The notes beneath the pieces are model-generated. The model was not told the origin of the DNA. It saw nothing but the letters and a program-made list of their open reading frames with translations, and made no database searches. Made by a program: the position numbers and the translations under genes. Below are positions 17,241 through 30,736 of a stretch of DNA of 46,018 nucleotides, one piece after another. The stretch is from an uncultured Geobacter sp. (GTDB taxonomy: Bacteria > Desulfobacterota > Desulfuromonadia > Geobacterales > DSM-12255), in assembly GCA_937860145.1 (NCBI GenBank), contig CALMBF010000028.1, forward strand, positions 1-46,018, in the 5' to 3' direction. How positions within the stretch are numbered: position 1 is the first letter of the stretch; each line of letters begins with the position of its first letter.

Positions 17241-19232
17241 CTATCCCCCGGCCCGTTCGGCGTCGTCACCCTCGCGGGAGCCCGGCTGACGCAGGGGCAG
17301 CAGGACGACGAACTTCGCCCCGGCCCCGGCGCTGCTCTCCACGCGGATCTCCCCGCCATGGTCCTGAACGATACCGTAGGAGACCGCCAGCCCCAGGCCC
17401 GTGCCCCGCTCCTTCGTGGTAAAGAACGGGGTGAACAGCTTCTCCATCTGCTCGGGGGTGATACCGCACCCCTGGTCCTGGATGATCACGCCGACCTGCC
17501 CATCCTCGCTGCCCTGTTCGACGTCAAGGAGCAGCTCCCCCCCCTCCGGCATCGCCTGCAGGCCATTGAGTATCAGGTTGGTGAAGACCTGGCGGAGCTG
17601 GTCCGCGTCCCCCTCCATCGTCACGTCGCGCCCCCAGTAGCAGCGGGACAGCTGATAGCGCTCCAGGGGGACCTGGTGCCCCAGCTGGTCGATGATCTCG
17701 TCCAGCAACTCCCCGAGGGAAAACTCGCTGATCCGTTTCAGCCCGCTGCGGGAAAAGGTCCGCAGGTTGCCGACGATCCTGCCGATGCGCACCGTCTCGT
17801 CGACGATGGCATCCACCTCCTCCCGTTCCTCGCTCTCCGGGGGGATGGCAGACTGCAGCAGCTCGGCATTGCCGCGGATGATCGCCAGGGGGTTGTTGAT
17901 CTCGTGGGCCACCCCGGCCGCCAGGAGCCCCAGTCCCGCAAGCCGTTCCGACTTGGCCAGCTTCTTCTGGGCGGCAAGGAGCTGGCCGCTCTTCTCCTCC
18001 AGCTCCAAGGTCCGCTGGGCAACCTTCTCCTCCAGGGTCTCCTTCAGGCTGGTGACCTCGAACGCCATCTGGTTGAACTCGTCCGCCAGGAGCCCGATCT
18101 CGTCGTTCCCCGCACTCCTGATCGGCTCGACCCGCTCGCCGGCCGCCATCCGCCGGGCGGCCTCGGCAAGGGCCCGTACCGGCATGGCCAGGCGGCGGCT
18201 GATCCAACCGGAGATGACGATACCGATACAGGCCACCAGGAGCAGGACCCCGGCGAAAATCAGGTTGAGACTCCTGCGCATCTCCAGGAGGGGACGCTCC
18301 GGCATCCCGACGTAGAGGGCGCCGACGATCGTGCCGCCAGGATCGCGCAGCGGTTCGTAGGCCGAGATGAACCAGTCGCTGAGCACGAAGGCCCGGTCGC
18401 TCCACCGTTCACCCTGCTCCAGCACCACCCTGGCCACCTCCCGGGACATGAGGGTGCCGAATGCCCGGTTGCCGTCGGCATCGCGCACGTTGGTGGCGAT
18501 GCGCACGTCGCCGAGGAAGACCGTGGCCGCGCCCCCCCCTTCCCGGTCGAAGACCGTGCTGGTGACCGTATCGACCACCCGGCTGTCGCCGTTGAGCATC
18601 ATCCCCGCCTGGAGCACCCCCACGACCGTGCCGTCGGCACCCCGCACCGGTGCCGCTGCAACCAGCAGGAGCCCCCGCTTCTCGCTCCCTCCGGTCACGG
18701 TCCGTCCCCGGGGAGTGGGCCTGATCTCCACCACGGCCCGTCCCGGCAGGGCGGGGTTCTCCAGGGCCAGACGCTCGGCGGGGTACACCTGGGTGGCGCC
18801 GGCCGGCTCCCCCCCCAGCGCCCGGGCCACCACCGGGTCACGGGAGAGGTCGTCACCCCGGGCTCCGGGGTTGGTCACCCGGTAGCGCACCACCCCCCTG
18901 GCGTCGATCACATTGAGAAAGCCCAGCCCCTCGTCCCTGCAGAGGTGCTGGAGCAGGGGCTCCACCGGGGCAAACCGCCCCGAGTCGAGGGACGCCGCCA
19001 TCTCCGGTCCCAGACCGGCCACCTTGACGATGCTCCCCAGGTGGTTCACCTCGTCGTTATACACCCGCCGGGCCGAGTTGAGATCGCTGAGCACCTTGAG
19101 CTGGGCCTGGCGAAAGACCCGGTCCGTGATCAGGAGCGAGCCGATCAGCCAGCAGAGGAGGATGGCAACGGTCAGGGGGAGGAGGGTGGCGAAGAGAAGC
19201 TTGCGCCGGATGGGCGAGCGGACGCGTTCCAT
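17241..19232 (-). CDS. Membrane sensor histidine kinase (Cache-HAMP-HisKA-HATPase)
   Basis: The 663-residue kinase has a first helix at about 11-36 and a large extracytoplasmic sensor at 37-320 of double-Cache type, with repeated GTVVGVLQAG/GTIVGALYVG-like strands. A second helix lies at about 321-345, then a HAMP linker, a coiled coil (about 390-430) and the phosphoacceptor His443 in VAHEINNPLAI. The ATP domain has the N box NLILNGLQAM, DQGCG (586-590) and GTGLGLA (610-616). It should autophosphorylate and signal to the sigma-54 regulator encoded 68 bp upstream. The substrate-binding protein follows 97 bp downstream. The Cache domain could bind a small organic acid directly, or it could read the binding protein. 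Confidence 0.93.
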   Translation of the reverse strand: MERVRSPIRRKLLFATLLPLTVAILLCWLIGSLLITDRVFRQAQLKVLSDLNSARRVYNDEVNHLGSIVKVAGLGPEMAASLDSGRFAPVEPLLQHLCRDEGLGFLNVIDARGVVRYRVTNPGARGDDLSRDPVVARALGGEPAGATQVYPAERLALENPALPGRAVVEIRPTPRGRTVTGGSEKRGLLLVAAAPVRGADGTVVGVLQAGMMLNGDSRVVDTVTSTVFDREGGGAATVFLGDVRIATNVRDADGNRAFGTLMSREVARVVLEQGERWSDRAFVLSDWFISAYEPLRDPGGTIVGALYVGMPERPLLEMRRSLNLIFAGVLLLVACIGIVISGWISRRLAMPVRALAEAARRMAAGERVEPIRSAGNDEIGLLADEFNQMAFEVTSLKETLEEKVAQRTLELEEKSGQLLAAQKKLAKSERLAGLGLLAAGVAHEINNPLAIIRGNAELLQSAIPPESEEREEVDAIVDETVRIGRIVGNLRTFSRSGLKRISEFSLGELLDEIIDQLGHQVPLERYQLSRCYWGRDVTMEGDADQLRQVFTNLILNGLQAMPEGGELLLDVEQGSEDGQVGVIIQDQGCGITPEQMEKLFTPFFTTKERGTGLGLAVSYGIVQDHGGEIRVESSAGAGAKFVVLLPLRQPGSREGDDAERAGG

Positions 19233-19300: not shown

Positions 19301-20662
19301 TCACGCCTGCCCCTCCCCGTCCATGAGTCCGAAATCCGCGATGCGCCGGTCCAGGGTCCGCCGGGAGATGCCGAGGATCTCGGCGGTGCGGCTCTTGTTG
19401 TAGCCGGTCTCCCTCAGGACCGCCTCGATGTGCTGCCGCTCGATCTCCTCAAGGGGGACCAGGCTCGGCCGGCGGGGGGCAGCGGCGCGGGGAGAGGGAG
19501 ACGGTGCCCCCCCCAGGGGGATGACCGCCGGAGTGATGGCGCTACCCGCGGTCAGGATGACGGCCCGCTCCATGACGTTCTCCAGCTCACGCACGTTCCC
19601 CGGCCAGGTGTACCCCTGCAGCACGTCCATCGCCTCGGTCTCGATGGAGCGGATATCCTTCCCCATCCGGGCGGCAAAGCGCCGGAGGAAGTGGTGGGCC
19701 AGGGGGCCGATGTCCTCGGTGCGATCCCTCAGGGGGGGGAGGTTGACGGTGATGACGTTCAGGCGGTAGTAGAGGTCCTCGCGGAAACGCCCCTCGGCGA
19801 CCTCCCGCTGCAGGTCCTTGTTGGTGGCGGCTATGAAGCGGACATCCACCTTCTTCGGTCGGGTGGAGCCGACGGGGATGAAGTCCCGCTCCTGGATGAC
19901 CCGCAGGAGCTTGGCCTGCACCGCCGGGCTGACGTCCCCGATCTCGTCCAGGAAGAGGGTCCCGCCGTCCGCCTCCTCCAGCATCCCCTTCTGGTTCGTC
20001 ACCGCGCCGGTGAACGCCCCCCGGAGGTGGCCGAAGAGCTGGCTCTCCAGGAGGGTGTCGGTGAGGGCGGCGCAGTTGAGGGAGACGAAGGGGCGGTCCC
20101 GGCGGTGGCTGTTGTTGTGGAGGGCGGCGGCGATCAGCTCCTTGCCGGTCCCCGACTCCCCCAGGACGAGGATGTTGGCGTCGCTGGGAGCCACCTTGAG
20201 GGCCAGGTCGTAGACCTCCCGGAAGCGGGGGCTGGCAAAGACGATCTGCCCTCCTCCGGAGAGCTCCTCCCGCAGGCGGCGGTTCTCCTCGGCCAGGCGC
20301 TTCATCTGCAGCACGTTCTCCACCATGCTGAGGAGTTTCTCGTTGGGGAACGGCTTGGTCAGGTAGTCGTAGGCCCCCAGTTTGATCGCCGCCACCGCGT
20401 CGTCCACCGTGGCGAAGGCGGTCATGATGATCACCGGCAGCTCGGGCCTCGTCCGGCTCACCGCCTTCATGATCTGCAGACCGTCCAGTTCGGGCATGCG
20501 CAGGTCCTGCAGCAGCAGGTCGATCTCCCCTCCCCCCGGCTCCTCCAGGCGCACCAGAAGATCCACCCCCCGGCTGAAGGTCTCCACCCGGTGCCCCTTC
20601 AGCACCTTCTTCAGGTACTTGAGGATCCCCTCCTCGTCGTCGCAGATGGCGATATGTGCCAT
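19301..20662 (-). CDS. NtrC-family sigma-54 response regulator
   Basis: The 453-residue protein has a receiver domain with phosphoacceptor Asp53 (LLQDLRMP) and Lys103 (LTKPF). The AAA+ domain has Walker A GESGTGKE (168-175), the sigma-54 contact loop GAFTGA (215-220), a Walker B LFLDEIGD and arginine-finger regions. It ends in a Fis-type helix-turn-helix (NKSRTAEILGISRRTLDRRI). It activates sigma-54 promoters after phosphorylation, presumably by the adjacent kinase. The gene is divergent from the formate dehydrogenase operon, which has a sigma-54 promoter, so that operon is the obvious candidate target. It could equally control distant genes. The ribosome binding site AGAGGTG precedes the ATG at 20662. 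Confidence 0.94.
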   Translation of the reverse strand: MAHIAICDDEEGILKYLKKVLKGHRVETFSRGVDLLVRLEEPGGGEIDLLLQDLRMPELDGLQIMKAVSRTRPELPVIIMTAFATVDDAVAAIKLGAYDYLTKPFPNEKLLSMVENVLQMKRLAEENRRLREELSGGGQIVFASPRFREVYDLALKVAPSDANILVLGESGTGKELIAAALHNNSHRRDRPFVSLNCAALTDTLLESQLFGHLRGAFTGAVTNQKGMLEEADGGTLFLDEIGDVSPAVQAKLLRVIQERDFIPVGSTRPKKVDVRFIAATNKDLQREVAEGRFREDLYYRLNVITVNLPPLRDRTEDIGPLAHHFLRRFAARMGKDIRSIETEAMDVLQGYTWPGNVRELENVMERAVILTAGSAITPAVIPLGGAPSPSPRAAAPRRPSLVPLEEIERQHIEAVLRETGYNKSRTAEILGISRRTLDRRIADFGLMDGEGQA

Positions 20663-20965: not shown

Positions 20966-21016
20966 CGTATACAGCGTGGATTTCATTAATCGAGACAGTT
21001 TTGCACAAGAACCATT

Positions 21017-21096
21017 TTCGCGCGGAGACGCGGAGGCGCAGAGTCGTTCACCAACAGTTTGCGTGCTTTTCTCAGCGTCCCTCCGTCTCGGCACGA
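21017..21096. repeat. Imperfect palindromic element in the formate dehydrogenase leader
   Basis: GCGCGGAGACGCGGAGGCGCAG faces an imperfect reverse complement (TTTCTCAGCGTCCCTCCGTCTCGG) about 30 bp downstream. The 'gagacgcggaggcgcagag' style is that of a dispersed intergenic repeat in many bacterial genomes. As part of the transcribed leader it could fold as a hairpin. Only one copy is seen here. Confidence 0.45.
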
Positions 21097-21137
21097 GACC
21101 GGATTTATACTGTAACAACACGAAAGGAGAAGTTTTC

Positions 21138-24100
21138 ATGGGAATGTCGCGAAGACAGTTCCTGCAGGGGGGGGCGCTGGCGGCAGCCGGCGTTGCTCTG
21201 AGCGGGAAGCCGGGCGAAGCCAGTGTCGATTCGCCCGAGATGCGCACCAAGGGGGCGAAGAGTTCCACCACCATCTGCCCCTACTGCGCCGTGGGGTGCG
21301 GGCTGATCGTCCACACCAAGAACGGCAGGATCGTCAACATCGAGGGTGACCCGGACCACCCGATCAACCAGGGGTCCCTCTGCTCCAAGGGGAGTTCCCT
21401 CTTCCAGGTGGCGGTCAACGACCGCCGACTGCAGAAGGTGATGTACCGGGCCCCCGGCTCTGACCGGTTCGAGGAGAAGTCCTGGGACTGGGCCCTGGAC
21501 CGGATCGCCCAGAAGATGAAGGAGACCCGGGACCGGACCTTCAAGGCCACCGAGGTCAACAAGAAGGACAAGAAGGAATACGTGGTGAACCGCACCGACG
21601 GCATGGCCTTTTTCGGCGGAGCCGGCCTGGACAACGAGGAGTGCTACCTCTGGTCCAAGTTCTCCCGCGCCATGGGGGTCGGTCAACTGGAACACCAGGC
21701 CCGATTATGACACTCCGCCACAGTCGCCGGTCTGGCGGCTTCGTTCGGTCGTGGTGCCATGACCAATCATTGGATCGACCTGAAGAACAGTGACGCTATC
21801 TTCATCATCGGCTGCAACCCGGCCGAGAATCACCCCATATCCTTCAAGTGGATCGAGCAGGCCGTGGACAACGGCGCAAACCTGATCGTCGCCGACCCGC
21901 GCTACACGAGGAGCGCCTCCAAGGCCGACATCTACGCCCAGCTCCGCCCGGGGACCGACATCGCCTTCCTCGGCGGCCTGATCAACTACGCCCTGCAGAA
22001 CAACCTGATCCACGCCGAGTACGTGCGGGAGTACACCAACGCCGCCTTTATCGTGAACGAGAAGTACGATTTTCAGGACGGCCTGTTCTGCTCCTTCGAC
22101 GACCAGGAGAAGAGCTACGACCTGAAGTCCTGGGCCTACGCCGTGGACGGCGCCGGCAACCCGCGCCGGGACATGAGCCTGAAAGACCCGCGCTGCGTCT
22201 ACCAGCTGCTGAAGAAGCACTACAGCCGCTACAACGTGGACACGGTCTGCAACATCACCGGCACCCCCAAGGAGGCCTACCTGAAGGTGGCCAAGGCGTT
22301 CTGCGCCACCGGCCGCCCCGACAAGGCCGGCACCATCCTCTACGCCATGGGGATCACCCAGTCGACCCACGGCACCCAGAACGTCCGGGCCGTGGCCATG
22401 CTCCAGATGCTCCTCGGGAACATCGGCATCGCCGGCGGCGGGGTCAACGCCCTCCGCGGCGAGTCCAACGTCCAGGGCTCCTCGGACTACGGGCTCCTGT
22501 TCCATCTCCTCCCCGGCTACCTCAAGTCGCCGGAATTCGACAACGTGGACCTGAAGGCCTACAACGAGAAGTGGACCCCAAAGACCAAGGACCCGAAGAG
22601 CGCCAACTGGTGGGGGAACACCCCCAAGTACGTCACCAGCCTGCTCAAGGCCTGGTACGGCGACCATGCAACGAAAGAGAACGACTTCTGCTACTCCTAT
22701 CTTCCCAAGCGGATGGGGAGCTACGCCTACGGCAAGATCATGGAGAAGATGGGCAAGGGGGAGCTGGAAGGGCTGGTCTGCATGGGGATGAACCCAGCCA
22801 TGGGGGGCCCCGACTCGGGCAAGGCCCGGGAGGCCCTGGGCAAGCTGAAGTGGCTGGTCACCGTCGACCTCTGGGAGACCGAGACCTCCATTTTCTGGAA
22901 GCGCCCCGGGGTGAACCCGAAGGATATCCAGACCGAAGTCTTCATGCTCCCGGCCGCATCGAGCGTGGAGAAGGAGGGGTCGATCTCCAACTCCGGCCGC
23001 TGGGCCCAGTGGCGTTACAAGGCGGTCGAGCCGGTGGGACAGTCCATGAGTGACCTCTGGATCATCGACCAGTTCTACAAGCGGATCAAGGCGCTCTACG
23101 TGAAGGACAAGGGTGCCTTCCCCGAGCCGATCACCCGCCTCTCCTGGAACTACGGCGAGGGGCACGAGCCGGAGGTCCACCTGGTGGCCCAGGAGATCAA
23201 CGGCCACTTCACCAGGGACATGACCATCGTCGACAAGGACAAGACCCTGGAGTTCAAGAAGGGTGACCCGGTCCCCATGTTCAAGTACCTCCAGGACGAC
23301 GGCTCCACCACCAGCGGCTGCTGGATCTACACCGGCTCCTACACGAAAGAGGGGAACCAGATGGCCCGCCGCGACCAGTCCGACCCGACCGGCCTCGGCC
23401 TCTTCCCCAAGTGGGCCTGGTGCTGGCCGGTCAACCGCCGGATCATCTACAACCGCGCCTCGGTCAACCCGGCCGGCGAGCCGTTCAATCCCAAGCGTCC
23501 GGTCATCGCCTGGGACGGCCTGGAGAAGAAGTGGAAAGGGGATGTCCCCGACGGCCCGTGGCCGCCGATGAAGGACGACAAGGAGGGGAAATACCCGTTC
23601 ATCATGCTGGCCGAGGGGCACGCCCGCCTCTACGCCCTGGACATGAAGGACGGCCCGTTCCCCGAACACTACGAGCCGATGGAGAGCCCGACGAGAAACC
23701 TCCTCTCCAAAGTGCAGAACAACCCGGCCGTTGCCGTCCCCAAGAACGTCTCCAGCGACCTGGCCAAGTTCCCGTTCATCGGCACCACTTACCGGATGAC
23801 CGAGCACTGGCAGGCCGGCGCCATGACGAGGAGCCTCCCCTGGCTGGCCGAACTGGTCCCCGACATGTTCGTCGAGATCAGCGAGTCCCTGGCCAAACAG
23901 AAAGGGCTGAAGAAGGGGGACAAGGTCCGGGTCGTCACGGAGCGGGGCTCCATCGAGGCGGTGACCCTGGTCACCTCCCGGCTCAAGCCGTTCAACGTGG
24001 GTGGCACAATGGTCGAACAGGTCGGCATGCCGTGGCACTTCGGCTACGCCGGGCTGGCCACCGGGGACAGCGCCAACATGCTGACCCCGACGGTAGGGTG

Positions 24101-24170
24101 CGCCAACACCAGTATCCCCGAGTTCAAGGCGTTTCTCTGCAACATCGAGAAAGGGGGTAACAAGGGATGA
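21138..24170 (+). CDS. fdnG: Formate dehydrogenase catalytic subunit, selenocysteine-containing
   Basis: The gene reads through an in-frame UGA at 21708-21710 (residue 191) and gives 1010 residues, close to E. coli FdnG. Sequence around the UGA (QARL-U-HSATVAGLAASFGRGAMTNHW) matches the selenocysteine site of molybdenum formate dehydrogenases. The ATG at 21138 follows AAAGGAGA and starts a twin-arginine signal (SRRQFLQGGALAAAG), so the enzyme is exported folded. Cys47, Cys50, Cys54 and Cys82 bind a 4Fe-4S cluster. The molybdopterin domains follow, ending with a dinucleotide-binding barrel. It oxidises formate and passes electrons to the iron-sulfur subunit encoded next (ATGA-overlapping start at 24167). 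A pipeline ignoring selenocysteine would split it into two genes. Confidence 0.95.
21708..21737 (+). other. UGA selenocysteine codon with bSECIS hairpin
   Basis: After the UGA (21708-21710) there are exactly 18 bases before an apical GGTCT loop (21729-21733) closed by CGCC/GGCG (21725-21728 with 21734-21737). The E. coli fdhF element has the same GGUCU loop at the same 18-base distance. An alternative longer pairing, CCGCCA with TGGCGG, is also possible. Both support SelB-dependent decoding. Confidence 0.88.
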
Positions 24171-27075: not shown

Positions 27076-27181
27076 GTGTAAAGAATCTTTACACTGTAAA
27101 ATTTCTTTACACCTCCCGTAACCCGCCGTTAATAGCCAGTTCCCGGCATTGCCAATCCTGATGTGTAAAGTTTCTTTACAC
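27076..27181. promoter_or_regulatory. Three palindromic operator/enhancer sites of the GTGTAAAG-N3-CTTTACAC type
   Basis: Sites are GTGTAAAGAATCTTTACAC (27076-27094), CTGTAAAATTTCTTTACAC (27094-27112) and GTGTAAAGTTTCTTTACAC (27163-27181). The first and third are perfect palindromes with 8-bp arms; the middle one has weaker arms. They lie about 130-220 bp upstream of the predicted start of a sigma-54-type promoter, the usual place for activator sites. The cognate protein is unknown. Confidence 0.7.
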
Positions 27182-27279
27182 GCCGCCCCTCAATATTCCC
27201 CAGACGCCAGACACAAGCCACGATGCTAACCCTCTGATTCAACGCGTGATTCATGGTTGAATATCCCTTACGTCAATTT

Positions 27280-27294
27280 TGGCACCATCTGTGC
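27280..27294 (+). promoter_or_regulatory. Sigma-54-type promoter ahead of the dockerin-like gene
   Basis: TGGCAC-catct-GTGC keeps GG and GC at the exact -24/-12 spacing, with one deviation from TTGC. The predicted start near 27306 gives a leader of about 318 bases. Confidence 0.6.
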
Positions 27295-27480
27295 GTGAGG
27301 AGGTGACAGCAACAGTTCATGAACAAACGATTAATCAACTCATTTCTATGAATCGTATCGGCCTGCATAGTATCTCAGCGGCCCTTTCTACGCATGTTTG
27401 CACACAGCACGACACTTAATTAAAGTTGACTTACTGCACCATTTAGGCTAATGTGTGCCCGCACATAATGACACAGACTC

Positions 27481-27609
27481 ATGAAAATTAAAGATCTGAC
27501 GGTAACGGGGCGGAAGGGCCTGATTCCGTGTCGAAAGATGCTTCCCCTTTCTTTAATGATCATCGCCGGTAACACGGCATTTATTGGCACCCCCACAACC
27601 AGACCATGA
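27481..27609 (+). CDS. Possible small leader peptide (42 residues)
   Basis: An ATG frame in the leader encodes a basic N-terminus (MKIKDLTVTGRKG) followed by a hydrophobic stretch (MLPLSLMIIAGNTAF). Its TGA overlaps an ATG at 27606, in frame with the next gene, as ATGA. It looks like a signal peptide or single-span peptide. There is no clear ribosome binding site, and length alone is weak evidence, so it may be chance. Confidence 0.25.
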   Translation: MKIKDLTVTGRKGLIPCRKMLPLSLMIIAGNTAFIGTPTTRP

Positions 27610-27623
27610 AGGAGATTTATGAC

Positions 27624-30149
27624 ATGAAATGCTCTTTGCCGGTCCTGCTCGTTCTCGCCATCCTCCCTCTGACCTTTATTCCCCCGCTTGCCCGGGCTGC
27701 CACCATCCAGCTACCGCAGACAGGACAGACGACCTGCATCGATGCCGCAGGTGCCGTCATAGCCTGTCAAGGAACCGGGCAGGACGGCGACATCCGGGCA
27801 GGAATTCCCCTGCCCAGCCCACGATTTGTGGACAATGCCGACGGAACGGTCACCGATAACCTCACCGGCCTGGTCTGGCTGAAGGATGCCAACTGCTTTG
27901 GCACGAAACTGTGGAAAGATGCCCTCACCGCAGCCAATACGCTGAAAGGTGACGGCACCCAGTGCAGCCTCAACGACGGATCCGTTGCCGGCGACTGGCG
28001 ACTGCCTAACTTCAACGAACTGAAAAGTCTCCTGGACCGGGGACAATACCCGATGATCGCCCCCGGATCTCCATTCACGGGCATTGCTGCCTCGTACTGG
28101 TCGTCCAGCAGTGCAATCGATACCTGGTTCGGAATATATAATTCCTCTGCATGGGTAGCAACCAGTTATTACGGCTACACACTCGCAGACGCCTATCAAA
28201 ATTTCAACAATGTGTGGCCTGTACGTGACGGACAAGCCGGTGTGGTGCAATTGCCGAAAACCGGACAAACAACGTGCCTTGATGGCACCTCAACAATTGC
28301 TTGTGCCGGCACCGGGCAGGACGGCGACACGTTGCGAGGAGTCGACCTGCCTACGGTAAGGTTTACGAACAACGGCAACGGCACGGTTACCGACAACCTG
28401 ACCGGGCTGATCTGGCTTCAGAATGCCAACTGCAAGGCCGACCCGTATGGATTCTGGAGCCAGGCAAAAGAGGGTACCTTGAGCTGGACAGACGCCATGG
28501 CATGGAGCAACGGCCTTAAATCCGGTGACTGCGGCCTGGCCGACGGCAGCCTTGCCGGGGACTGGCGCCTGCCCAACATCACAGAGTTGCAGAGTTTGGT
28601 AGACATCACTGCCAAGTCGGCTCCTCCCCTTCCGTCAGAGGCGTTCTCGAAATTCACCAATATCTGGAGAGATGTTTTCACTTCGCCCTATTATTGGTCA
28701 AGTACCAATGATGTGAAGAGCGGTGCTTTTATGATGGGCATTTACAACGGATCTATCAACAACAGTCAGATTCGTTCTGATTTCCTCTATCATGCCTGGC
28801 CGGTACGAGGCGGCCTGCTTGGGGGTGCCACGATGACGGTTTTCCCCGGAGCGAGAGATTTCGGCATCCTGGCACCGGGAGAGAGCGCCAGCCAGGTTGT
28901 TACCATCAGCAATACGGGATCGACGACTCGCCTGCAGGTAGGCGCCATAACCCTTTCGGGGACGGATGCCGGAGAGTTTGTCCTGAATGTCGGTAACGGC
29001 ACGAACGGCACCTGCGGCAGCACGATGCCTATCATCGCTCCCGGTGCATATTGCACCGTCACGGTCAGCTTCAGCCCCGCCACCACCGGCACAAAAAGCG
29101 CAGCGCTGAGCATCTCCACCGCTCAACTCTCCACTGTAGCGCTAAGCGGCACATCCCTGGTCAACGGGGTTTGCGGCACGGCCAACGGCGGGTTGTTCAA
29201 CACCGCCCCCTCAACAAATCTCTGTGTTTCAGGTACAACGTCGGCCATGAACGGCACCGGACCATGGACATGGGACTGCACCGGCGGGGGGGGCGGCACA
29301 AGCGCAAGCTGCTCGGCAAACATCTCGACCAATACCGTCACATTCAGTCCCGGAGCCCACGGTTCCCTAACCGGGGTTGCCAGCCAGGTGGTCAAGTACG
29401 GTGACACCGCAACCACTGTCACCGCAATCCCTGACCCAGATTCCGTCTTCGTCAACTGGACGGAAGGAGCAACGGTTGTGGGATCAAGCGCATCGCTTAC
29501 TGCCGTCAATATAATCGCAGCTCACAATTATACGGCCAACTTCGCTTTACTTAATGGCACCTGCGGCACGAGCAACGGCACTACGTTACCCGTTGCCCCG
29601 ACGAGTAACCTCTGTGCAGGCGGCACGGCGACCCCCCTGAGCGGTACCGGCCCCTGGAACTGGCAGTGCGTCAGCGCCTACGGGGGAACGACGGCAAACT
29701 GCTCCGCCAACATCCGCACCTACACCGTCACCCCGACGGCAGGGACATCCACTACCATCTCCCCGGCCACCCCCCTGACGGTCAACCATGGCGGCAAGGC
29801 AACATTCACCATCACCGCCCCTGCAGGATACGGCATTACGGGTACGGGCTGCGGCGGCACCCTGAACGGGACGACCTACACCACCGGTACGGTCACGGCT
29901 GACTGCACCGTCAGCGTCAACGCGGTCCGTCGCACTGCCGACTCAACCGGTGCCGGCCAGCCCACGATCCAGGATGCCCTGAGGACGCTCCTTGCGTACA
30001 ACGGCAAGGTACAGCTGAGTTCGGCGGAAAAGATCCTCTACGATGTCGCCCCTCTGGGGAGCAACGGGCTTCCCGTCGGCAACGGTATCGTGGATTATGC
30101 CGACATCATCATGATCATGCGCAGGATCGTCGGCATCGGCAGCTGGTGA
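27624..30149 (+). CDS. Secreted multidomain protein: two DUF1566 domains, anchor-D domain, dockerin-like end
   Basis: I prefer the ATG at 27624, nine bases after GGAG, over one at 27606. The 841-residue product has a signal peptide (MKCSLPVLLVLAILPLTF...LARA). Two DUF1566 (Lcl-type) domains follow at about residues 60-195 and 235-395, marked by GTVTDNLTGLVWL, DWRLPN.NEL and YWSS. Then come a choice-of-anchor-D/ASPM-like domain (about 405-505) and cysteine-containing modules with GTGPWxWxC. A C-terminal segment (about 775-841) of two helices around VGNGIVDYADIIMIMRRIVG resembles one arm of dockerin calcium loops. It is probably exported to the cell surface. It is followed 53 bp later by a small lipoprotein that may bind it. 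Molecular role unknown. Confidence 0.82.
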   Translation: MKCSLPVLLVLAILPLTFIPPLARAATIQLPQTGQTTCIDAAGAVIACQGTGQDGDIRAGIPLPSPRFVDNADGTVTDNLTGLVWLKDANCFGTKLWKDALTAANTLKGDGTQCSLNDGSVAGDWRLPNFNELKSLLDRGQYPMIAPGSPFTGIAASYWSSSSAIDTWFGIYNSSAWVATSYYGYTLADAYQNFNNVWPVRDGQAGVVQLPKTGQTTCLDGTSTIACAGTGQDGDTLRGVDLPTVRFTNNGNGTVTDNLTGLIWLQNANCKADPYGFWSQAKEGTLSWTDAMAWSNGLKSGDCGLADGSLAGDWRLPNITELQSLVDITAKSAPPLPSEAFSKFTNIWRDVFTSPYYWSSTNDVKSGAFMMGIYNGSINNSQIRSDFLYHAWPVRGGLLGGATMTVFPGARDFGILAPGESASQVVTISNTGSTTRLQVGAITLSGTDAGEFVLNVGNGTNGTCGSTMPIIAPGAYCTVTVSFSPATTGTKSAALSISTAQLSTVALSGTSLVNGVCGTANGGLFNTAPSTNLCVSGTTSAMNGTGPWTWDCTGGGGGTSASCSANISTNTVTFSPGAHGSLTGVASQVVKYGDTATTVTAIPDPDSVFVNWTEGATVVGSSASLTAVNIIAAHNYTANFALLNGTCGTSNGTTLPVAPTSNLCAGGTATPLSGTGPWNWQCVSAYGGTTANCSANIRTYTVTPTAGTSTTISPATPLTVNHGGKATFTITAPAGYGITGTGCGGTLNGTTYTTGTVTADCTVSVNAVRRTADSTGAGQPTIQDALRTLLAYNGKVQLSSAEKILYDVAPLGSNGLPVGNGIVDYADIIMIMRRIVGIGSW

Positions 30150-30202
30150 TCGGCAGGGATTCAGTGAAGATTGACACGACGTCTACCCTCTGGAGGTTAT
30201 GC

Positions 30203-30736
30203 ATGCTTAAACAGATCCTGTTCAGGTCACCACTAATAGTGGCACTCTTTCTCCTTGCCGCCTGCGGCGGCGGAGGCGGGGGGAGTAGCAGCACTCCCGT
30301 GGCAGCCCCCGCCCCCACCTACTCCAAGGCCATCGTGAAAGTGGCCCTCGTCGGCACGCTACCCGCCGGCAGCGCCATCAGCGGGACAAGTTTCGCTCTG
30401 TTCCTGAAACCCGAATTGACCCCGGAGGTGGCTGGCGGATCGGTTGTTGCCGGAGTCGTCACCCCCTCCGGCACCTTTGCAAGCGGCACCCAGCTCACGG
30501 ACTGGACCCCTCCGAACGCAACGACGCCGACGGGGAAGATGATGATAGACCTGGCGGACACGACCCCTGCGGGCGTGACACTGGTGGGGGAAGTGGCGAC
30601 CATAACCCTGCAGCTCGTCAACAAAACGGCCCCCTCCGCAGGGAGCTATGTTCTGGCCCCCTACGGGGTGGCTGACCTGTCGGGGAATCCCATACCGACA
30701 TTGCAGGCCACCATCGCCGAGGTCATCCTCCAGTAA
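30203..30736 (+). CDS. Small lipoprotein, possibly cohesin-like
   Basis: The frame opens earlier, but the ATG at 30203 has a TGGAGG ribosome binding site and starts a lipoprotein signal (MLKQILFRSPLIVALFLLAA, Cys21) followed by a glycine run. The remaining 150 residues are all-beta: VKVALVGTLPAGSAISGTSF, then GKMMIDLADTTP and VATITLQLV. This strand pattern resembles cohesin-type domains seen next to dockerin-like proteins. The upstream gene ends in a dockerin-like module, so the pair could form an anchored complex. That function is inferred, and the similarity needs profile comparison. Length is 177 residues. Confidence 0.7.
   Translation: MLKQILFRSPLIVALFLLAACGGGGGGSSSTPVAAPAPTYSKAIVKVALVGTLPAGSAISGTSFALFLKPELTPEVAGGSVVAGVVTPSGTFASGTQLTDWTPPNATTPTGKMMIDLADTTPAGVTLVGEVATITLQLVNKTAPSAGSYVLAPYGVADLSGNPIPTLQATIAEVILQ

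Follow-up and report, generated by a model that had tools for sequence, protein, structure and literature searches.

The window, by which we mean the whole 46,018-nt stretch of DNA that was analysed, contains three matches to the palindrome GTGTAAAGNNNCTTTACAC when up to 3 mismatches are allowed. When the window was shuffled 100 times, the mean was 0.02 matches and 3 matches were reached in 0/100 shuffles. The features considered here are the following.

17241-19232, minus strand: histidine kinase of a two-component pair
19301-20662, minus strand: NtrC-type activator of this pair, which is upstream of a formate dehydrogenase operon
27076..27094, no strand assigned: upstream palindrome 1, perfect (0 mismatches), GTGTAAAGAATCTTTACAC
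27094..27112, no strand assigned: upstream palindrome 2, the distal member of a 69-bp pair, 2 mismatches, CTGTAAAATTTCTTTACAC
27113..27162, no strand assigned: spacer of fixed length carrying TCCCGTAA, the left arm of an internal inverted repeat in the genus consensus
27163..27181, no strand assigned: upstream palindrome 3, the proximal member of the 69-bp pair, 0 mismatches, GTGTAAAGTTTCTTTACAC
27280..27294, plus strand: sigma-54-type core promoter TGGCACCATCTGTGC (GG-N10-GC), located 99 bp past the palindrome 3 core
27624..30149, plus strand: predicted target gene, encoding an N-terminus that is signal-peptide-like by inspection, two Lcl_C stretches, and choice-of-anchor-D and InlB-B-type repeats
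30146..30736, plus strand: second gene, overlapping the target gene, for a short protein that is lipoprotein-like by inspection

Palindromes 1 and 2 have one base in common and centres 18 bp apart, and palindromes 2 and 3 are separated by 69 bp from start to start. In the promoter-like element TGGCACCATCTGTGC the GG is at 27281-27282 and the GC at 27293-27294, and the three palindrome centres are 196, 178, and 109 bp upstream of the first G. We predict that transcription starts near 27306, which would place the palindromes about 220 to 134 bp upstream of the start. The initial annotation of this DNA had described three palindromes about 130–220 bp before the predicted start of a sigma-54-type promoter, and the palindromes and the promoter element are as it described them. 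The longest open reading frame of the target gene begins at 27606, but 27624, after AAGGAG, is the better start. An Rfam scan of the whole window gave no matches at gathering thresholds, so the leader of roughly 318 nt contains no known riboswitch. The product of the second gene had no Pfam matches at E 0.01. Gene starts and operons were taken from a simple open reading frame caller of our own, used without annotation, and secretion signals were judged by eye. Elsewhere in the window (20976-24170), the alpha subunit of formate dehydrogenase is encoded by two in-frame open reading frames split by a TGA at 21708-21710, a position at which relatives carry selenocysteine.

The palindrome is not confined to the window. 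The genome to which the window belongs (3,956,791 bases in 207 contigs) has 33 forward matches at ≤3 mismatches compared to 10 for a reversed control, and 26 of the 33 are grouped in 12 arrays. The share of matches within arrays was 18/18 at ≤1 mismatch, 6/7 at 2 mismatches, and 2/8 at 3 mismatches. Beyond what the initial annotation had reported, the spacing of palindromes 2 and 3 recurs across the genome. A search for two cores with a 52-base gap between them (69 bp start to start), allowing ≤3 mismatches summed over both cores, found 11 pairs, ten with 0 mismatches and one with 1, and none with the reversed control. A twelfth pair, on contig 116 (C116), is 67 bp apart.

We scanned both directions round each array for core elements with ≤3 mismatches to TGGCACG-N4-TTGC. 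Eleven of the 12 arrays have a GG-N10-GC element 173–197 bp past the start of the distal site. Several arrays have extra matches elsewhere or on the other strand, and at the C76 array there are matches at a similar distance on both strands. At the C116 array the contig ends 67 bp away, in the direction in which transcription would be expected if this array is oriented like its counterparts. A gene for RpoN is present in the genome (PF04552, 213.1 bits with a cut-off of 22.8). The sister genome G141 gave similar results, with a −24/−12-like element past the proximal palindrome in 8/8 arrays examined. Across the 19 arrays from both genomes, the best element 86–110 bp past the proximal core scored at least 11.0 in 19/19. 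As a comparison, a proportion of 0.0094 of random 25-position windows from the same loci reached a score of 11, and a matched null is slightly above this because the search took the best of 36 positions. In one of the 19 arrays (L165) the core element ends in GA rather than GC. These data support the idea, already raised by the initial annotation, that the palindromes are enhancer sites of a sigma-54 activator and mark a regulon that had not been described, since the palindrome is enriched before genes, is paired at an exact geometry, and is followed by a −24/−12-like element at a nearly fixed place in 11/12 arrays. Judged from these sequences, sigma-54 dependence is well supported for the window's genus only.

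Column profiles of the 19 arrays showed that the conserved parts are the palindromes, a degenerate half-site, an internal inverted repeat, and the core element. The degenerate half-site, GGGTGCAAG-TTTTTTACA, is 18 bp upstream of the distal palindrome; most other arrays of the genus have it at the position where the window has palindrome 1. The inverted repeat, TCCCGT-A...TTT-CGGG, is in the consensus of the 19 arrays between the paired sites and had not been noticed in the initial annotation. It is perhaps a widely split extra pair of half-sites, and by inspection its right arm is poorly kept in the window's array. Outside of these short motifs little of the sequence is conserved, which speaks against the arrays being copies of a mobile or dispersed repeat. 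A constant layout at 12 places is what such a repeat would give. However, the sequence between and around the sites is unconserved save for the short motifs, the arrays precede unrelated genes, and in other genomes both motif and spacing change, yet linkage to the gene cluster described below recurs. We consider a dispersed repeat to be very improbable.

The genes downstream of the arrays are diverse, and many of them look like they encode secreted proteins. In the window's genome they encode BNR-repeat proteins (C21 and C160), the Lcl_C/choice-of-anchor-D protein of the window (C28), a ParB-like protein followed by an N6-methylase/HSDR_N protein (C33), a TIR-SLOG protein with, by inspection, a second TIR-like protein (C70), a short protein without an assigned family followed by an amidase (C79), an HD-domain response regulator (C120), a subtilase (C184), and an SpvB/TcdB-middle/RHS protein (C201). 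The gene at the C76 array encodes an AraC-type regulator that also matches a receiver domain weakly, and its longest open reading frame reads back through the array. At the C13 array the third downstream gene alone was scanned and gave no matches. By inspection, homologues of the HD-domain gene, and of the gene that precedes the amidase, follow arrays in G141 as well. Giant proteins with a transglutaminase core are encoded behind arrays in two other genera (L146 and L182), and in genus g13 (L174, L176, and L181) a patatin gene, with the domain tested in L174 only, and what by inspection is an XRE gene are found behind arrays. We also considered recent acquisition of the targets and do not claim it, the median GC3 of target genes being 0.72 versus 0.80 (Mann–Whitney p 0.12).

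The C116 array provides a candidate for the regulator. It is located 3′ of a radical-SAM/SPASM gene for a geopeptide maturase (TIGR04280, 623.9 bits with a cut-off of 400). The neighbours of this maturase gene encode a TonB-type receptor, a PF04392 binding protein, and a histidine kinase, and on the opposite strand of the cluster there is a gene for a 486-aa NtrC-type response regulator. This protein matches PF00072, PF00158 (Sigma54_activat), and PF02954 (Fis-type HTH), all above cut-offs, and has a GAYTGA loop, Walker A GETGVGKE, and Walker B LFLDEIGD. Between the maturase and receptor genes is a 31-codon open reading frame (L017, 1593-1688, minus strand) that has the LEILEEG...CC layout of a geopeptide precursor and by eye a good ribosome-binding site. 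It is absent among the TIGR04229 hits of the genome, the best of which (contig 78) has 23.5 bits with a cut-off of 30; this model is passed by 2/3 precursors from related clusters in other genomes. The TonB receptor resembles receptors for vitamin B12 and siderophores and the binding protein is similar to the tryptophan-binding TrpX family, in each case below model cut-offs. The C116 activator and the window's palindromes are on separate contigs of one genome. The C116 NtrC-type activator is very probably the regulator of the palindromes.

A tblastn search with the C116 activator found orthologues that are 54–60% identical in L155, L170, L174, L176, and L181, which are array loci from other genera (with one stretch in L181 being 43% identical), and the next best match by score was the window's own activator (19301-20662) at 34%. 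This search covered the loci then fetched, which were mostly array loci, and a lack of orthologues elsewhere is not implied. The result bears on the idea that the sites belong to the window's own two-component pair upstream of the formate dehydrogenase operon. Local regulation is common, and the activator of this pair is of the NtrC type and is encoded about 6.4 kb from the palindromes. However, its identity to the C116 activator, which has orthologues adjoining arrays, is only 34%, and its helix, SRRTLDRR, is unlike the helices paired with TGTAAA sites. Of the array loci in the window's genome, only L017 and the window locus gave a full-length activator match in this search. We think it quite improbable that the sites belong to the local pair, and the window's kinase and activator are probably unrelated to the palindromes.

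To describe linkage across the order, we used 20 loci picked by their maturase and 13 (L244-L256) picked by their activator, the array loci having been selected for having sites. Matches to TIGR04280 occur in 103/277 genomes of the class, all within the window's order, where they are in 103/141 genomes. Genes for maturase, receptor, binding protein, kinase, and activator are found together within 16 kb in 12/20 maturase loci, and a precursor recognized by our pattern is in 17/20. The precursor pattern was found in 0/13 activator loci, among which are those encoding the nearest relatives of the C116 activator, and the precursors of L244-L256 may be divergent or encoded elsewhere. Tandem near-palindromes 60–77 bp apart occur in 10/20 maturase loci (L216, L219, L220, L223, L224, L225, L227, L228, L230, and L231) and were not found in the other 10. 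They lie 3′ of the maturase gene at 0.02–0.4 kb in five loci and at 0.8–1.9 kb in four, and in L216 the array is 3′ of the binding-protein gene. Sites are beside the cluster or the activator in 7/13 activator loci, and tandem palindromes were not found in 6/13. The search of the maturase loci was controlled with shuffles and that of the activator loci was done without a shuffle of its own; sites in L225 of the maturase set and L249 of the activator set were visible before selection. A GC-rich palindrome pair in L229, about 6.6 kb from the maturase gene, resembles terminators and was left out of the count. In genus g13, a single locus (L147) has four copies of the geopeptide precursor and at least two maturases.

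The sites differ between genera. The types observed are TGTAAA-N5-TTTACA, GTGTTAA-N5-TTAACAC, TGTAACA-N3-TGTTACA, TGTAAAG-N3-CTTTCCA, TGGTAAT-N3-ATTACCA, and TGTAAAC-N3-GTTTACA. GTGTAAA-N5-TTTACAC is present in 17/141 genomes of the order, reaching 17 copies, and has 0 matches in the other 124; its control is present in 3/141 genomes with one match each. This motif is found in 13/26 genomes for which an activator match of ≥54% identity was listed, compared to 4/115 other genomes (Fisher 2e-8). Half of the genomes with such a listed activator are thus without the exact motif. Four of these 13 motif-less genomes (G210, G211, G236, and G237) carry variants of the site next to the cluster or the activator, and their activators are 68–73% identical to the C116 activator. 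TIGR04280 is matched in 16/17 motif genomes (p 0.027), the exception being the fragmented genome G246, but we dropped this co-occurrence as main evidence because the family is too common in the order.

Pairs of TGTAAA-N5-TTTACA were also observed in more distant bacteria. In two Gallionella MAGs (L026 and L031) they are spaced by 54 bp and lie close to XRE and HipA-like genes; by inspection this appears to be an unrelated toxin–antitoxin operator, and we rejected these sites as members of the same regulon. Among the matches listed for Rhodobacterales (L033, L044, L048, and L064) there are pairs 57–59 bp apart, which probably belong to another regulator.

In most of their own genomes, three of the divergent palindromes that we first found beside clusters mark sets of sites spread genome-wide. 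TGGTAAT-N3-ATTACCA, from the cluster of G180, has 32 matches in G180 at ≤1 mismatch with a control of 0, and 29/32 are in 14 arrays with 64–66 bp spacing; five other genomes have 0–2 each. GTGTTAA-N5-TTAACAC has 24 matches in G249, 19 in G250, 24 in G252, and 34 in G253 with a control of 0, and 0–1 in each of six other genomes. Among the matches listed for G249, G250, and G252, many of these sites are single or 28–29 bp apart, so the pairs of 65–77 bp seen at clusters are not the rule there and the geometry varies. TGTAACA-N3-TGTTACA has 13 matches in G146, 4 in G147, and 9 in G211, often paired 56–67 bp apart, and 0–1 in the other six genomes, with a control of 2 in G144 and 0 elsewhere. In G257 the only genome-wide match to TGTAACA-N3-TGTTACA is that of the cluster array.

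The window's genome has a second geopeptide cluster on contig 78 (L232 and L242), encoding two receptors of the TonB type and two binding proteins. The activator of this cluster is 47% identical to the C116 activator and has GAHAFAG in place of GAFTGA. A prediction that TGTAACA sites would serve this second activator failed, because at ≤2 mismatches the window's genome has 5 matches versus 3 in the control and no pairs, and no tandem palindromes were found near the contig 78 activator. With a degenerate sigma-54 contact loop, no tandem palindromes found nearby, and a failed prediction, we dropped this system as a further supporting case.

We compared operators with the recognition helices of the activators in the 20 systems where both were available. 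Not used were L181, where the activator is interrupted, L248, where it is in pieces, and L213-L215, which are without a motif. In 4/4 systems with G at position four of the half-site, RPTL, RQTL, or RQTV is followed by K or R, compared to 0/16 of the remaining systems (Fisher 2e-4); the association represents perhaps three independent events. The G is in all half-sites of L253 and in half of those of L216, L245, and L247. In L244 it is in 1/4 half-sites and the helix residue is Q. CRQTV is paired with T at the fifth position (TGTTAA and TGGTAA), and TGTAACA half-sites are paired with N, I, or L, then RK. In the 19 systems that remain after leaving out L223, in which the activator runs off the locus, half-site distance correlated with HTH distance (r 0.534) and less so with distance over the remainder of the activator (0.285). 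The partial Mantel value was 0.518 with a p of 5e-5, which is the floor for 20,000 permutations; the systems are not independent of each other, and the partial test removes only the distance of the rest of the activator. The recognition helix of the activator covaries with the operator.

Promoters outside of the window's genus are less uniform. Of 33 arrays there, 19 carry TGGYRY-N5-nTG on one side at a distance of up to 220 bp, and in 14 neither side has it; a random 220-bp stretch matches at a frequency of 0.0475 per strand. The base after this element is C in 1/19 and A, G, or T in the others, so that the core promoter is atypical in 18/33 arrays. All 12 arrays in genus g13 (L146-L149 and L174-L181) have TGGYAY-N5-nTG, followed by A (8) or G (4) and never C. 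In G180 (L253 and L262-L275) a core element was found in 1/14 arrays, no more than chance. The GA(F/Y)TGA loop is kept in 17/19 complete activators, with GAYTHA in L155 and GSFTGA in L227 as exceptions. Outside the genus there are either unusual sigma-54 promoters or a different mechanism. An element that is atypical or not found beyond the genus is one reason to ask if the palindromes bind a repressor or a sigma-70 regulator, with the −24/−12 match being incidental. It is also the case that simple AT-rich palindromes serve many regulators and that, by inspection, the pattern is also matched at the Gallionella loci where XRE and HipA-like genes are found. We nonetheless consider this improbable, as the element is at 86–110 bp in 19/19 arrays of the window's genus and the regulator linked to the arrays has the GA(F/Y)TGA loop in 17/19 complete activators.

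Together, these observations suggest a model in which the three palindromes are the upstream activating array of a sigma-54 promoter driving the gene at 27624. The 486-aa C116 activator would bind the palindromes, with a predicted site of GTGTAAAG-N3-CTTTACAC. We infer that the activator, once phosphorylated, would form a dimer on every palindrome, come together on the pair with its fixed 69-bp geometry, and contact sigma-54 polymerase through a loop of about 100 bp, leading to opening of the promoter. At least 11 promoters of the genome share the array layout. As a whole explanation of the sites, an array and sigma-54 promoter driven by a C116-type activator seems to us likely, with good confidence.

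What the receptor, binding protein, and kinase respond to is a separate question. From gene linkage, these proteins could be sensing the matured geopeptide, either by itself or together with a ligand. This idea is possible but somewhat doubtful, and we do not rate it higher because the precursor pattern is lacking in 13/13 activator loci. There is about an even chance that the activator is correctly identified and the signal is something other than the geopeptide, such as a vitamin, a metal chelate, or envelope stress, with the peptide being co-regulated or separate. The resemblance of the receptor to vitamin B12 and siderophore receptors and of the binding protein to the TrpX family, all below cut-offs, is consistent with this, as is the count of 0/13 precursors in loci chosen by activator. 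By contrast, the co-occurrence of maturase, receptor, binding protein, kinase, and activator in 12/20 maturase loci and the precursor pattern in 17/20 argue for the peptide.

If the geopeptide is the signal, a broader and more tentative reading, which we regard as rather unlikely at present, is that the Geobacterales have a family of insulated peptide circuits. In each, an exported CC peptide modified by the radical-SAM enzyme might re-enter the cell and activate a private sigma-54-type regulon, and each geopeptide cluster might have its own TonB receptor, binding protein, and activator. The half-sites TGTAAA, TGTTAA, TGGTAAT, TGTAACA, and TGGAAA could then have co-diverged with the helix, insulating the systems from each other, and the targets could have social or conflict functions (large secreted surface proteins, proteases, an amidase, RHS-type, TIR-SLOG, and restriction genes). 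Peptide signalling of this kind would be communication through the outer membrane in relatives of Geobacter, where the circuit may be testable. From these findings geopeptides gain a predicted regulator, operator, regulon, and sensing pathway. The activators and operators also form a natural series within one family with an apparent specificity code, in which one helix residue tracks one base, and this should be useful for studying how sigma-54 activators change specificity.

The predicted system is like the NtrC, AtoC, and ZraR regulons in having an activator with response regulator, AAA+, and Fis-type HTH domains. It is also like regulons of the NtrC family in having palindromic sites 100–200 bp upstream of GG-N10-GC promoters. 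It differs from them in the three-site array with 18 + 69 bp geometry, the 69 bp being common to 11 promoters, in the linked radical-SAM peptide cluster, and in an operator that varies between genera. Motif groups described for sigma-54 activators of Desulfovibrio vulgaris include TGT/ACA half-sites 9, 11, or 12 bp apart (PMC4641369), and the gap of 11 in our sites (TGT-N11-ACA) is within one of the groups described there. The half-site spacing group is therefore known already, as are geopeptide and maturase as named NCBIfam families (TIGR04229 for the precursor and TIGR04280, which the C116 maturase passes, for the maturase). These models cover peptide and maturase only, with receptor, binding protein, kinase, activator, and regulon outside them. 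In the literature searched we found no paper on geopeptides, and none on the receptor, binding protein, kinase, activator, and regulon of this study. The sites of NifA are TGT-N10-ACA and the TyrR boxes are TGTAAA-N6-TTTACA. These are like our sites in being TGT...ACA palindromes for AAA+ activators, but the half-site gaps differ, as the sites here are TGT-N11-ACA and TGTAAA-N5-TTTACA. Peptide-based quorum sensing is found in the agr-like or Rgg-like pheromone systems of Gram-positive bacteria. The proposed logic is similar in combining a secreted peptide that carries modifications with a sensor kinase and a regulon that has secreted proteins among its products, but the route proposed here would cross the outer membrane via a TonB receptor and a periplasmic binding protein and end in sigma-54. 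Compared to these systems, what appears new is the combination of a two-component sigma-54 regulon with a radical-SAM peptide system and with operators specific to each lineage.
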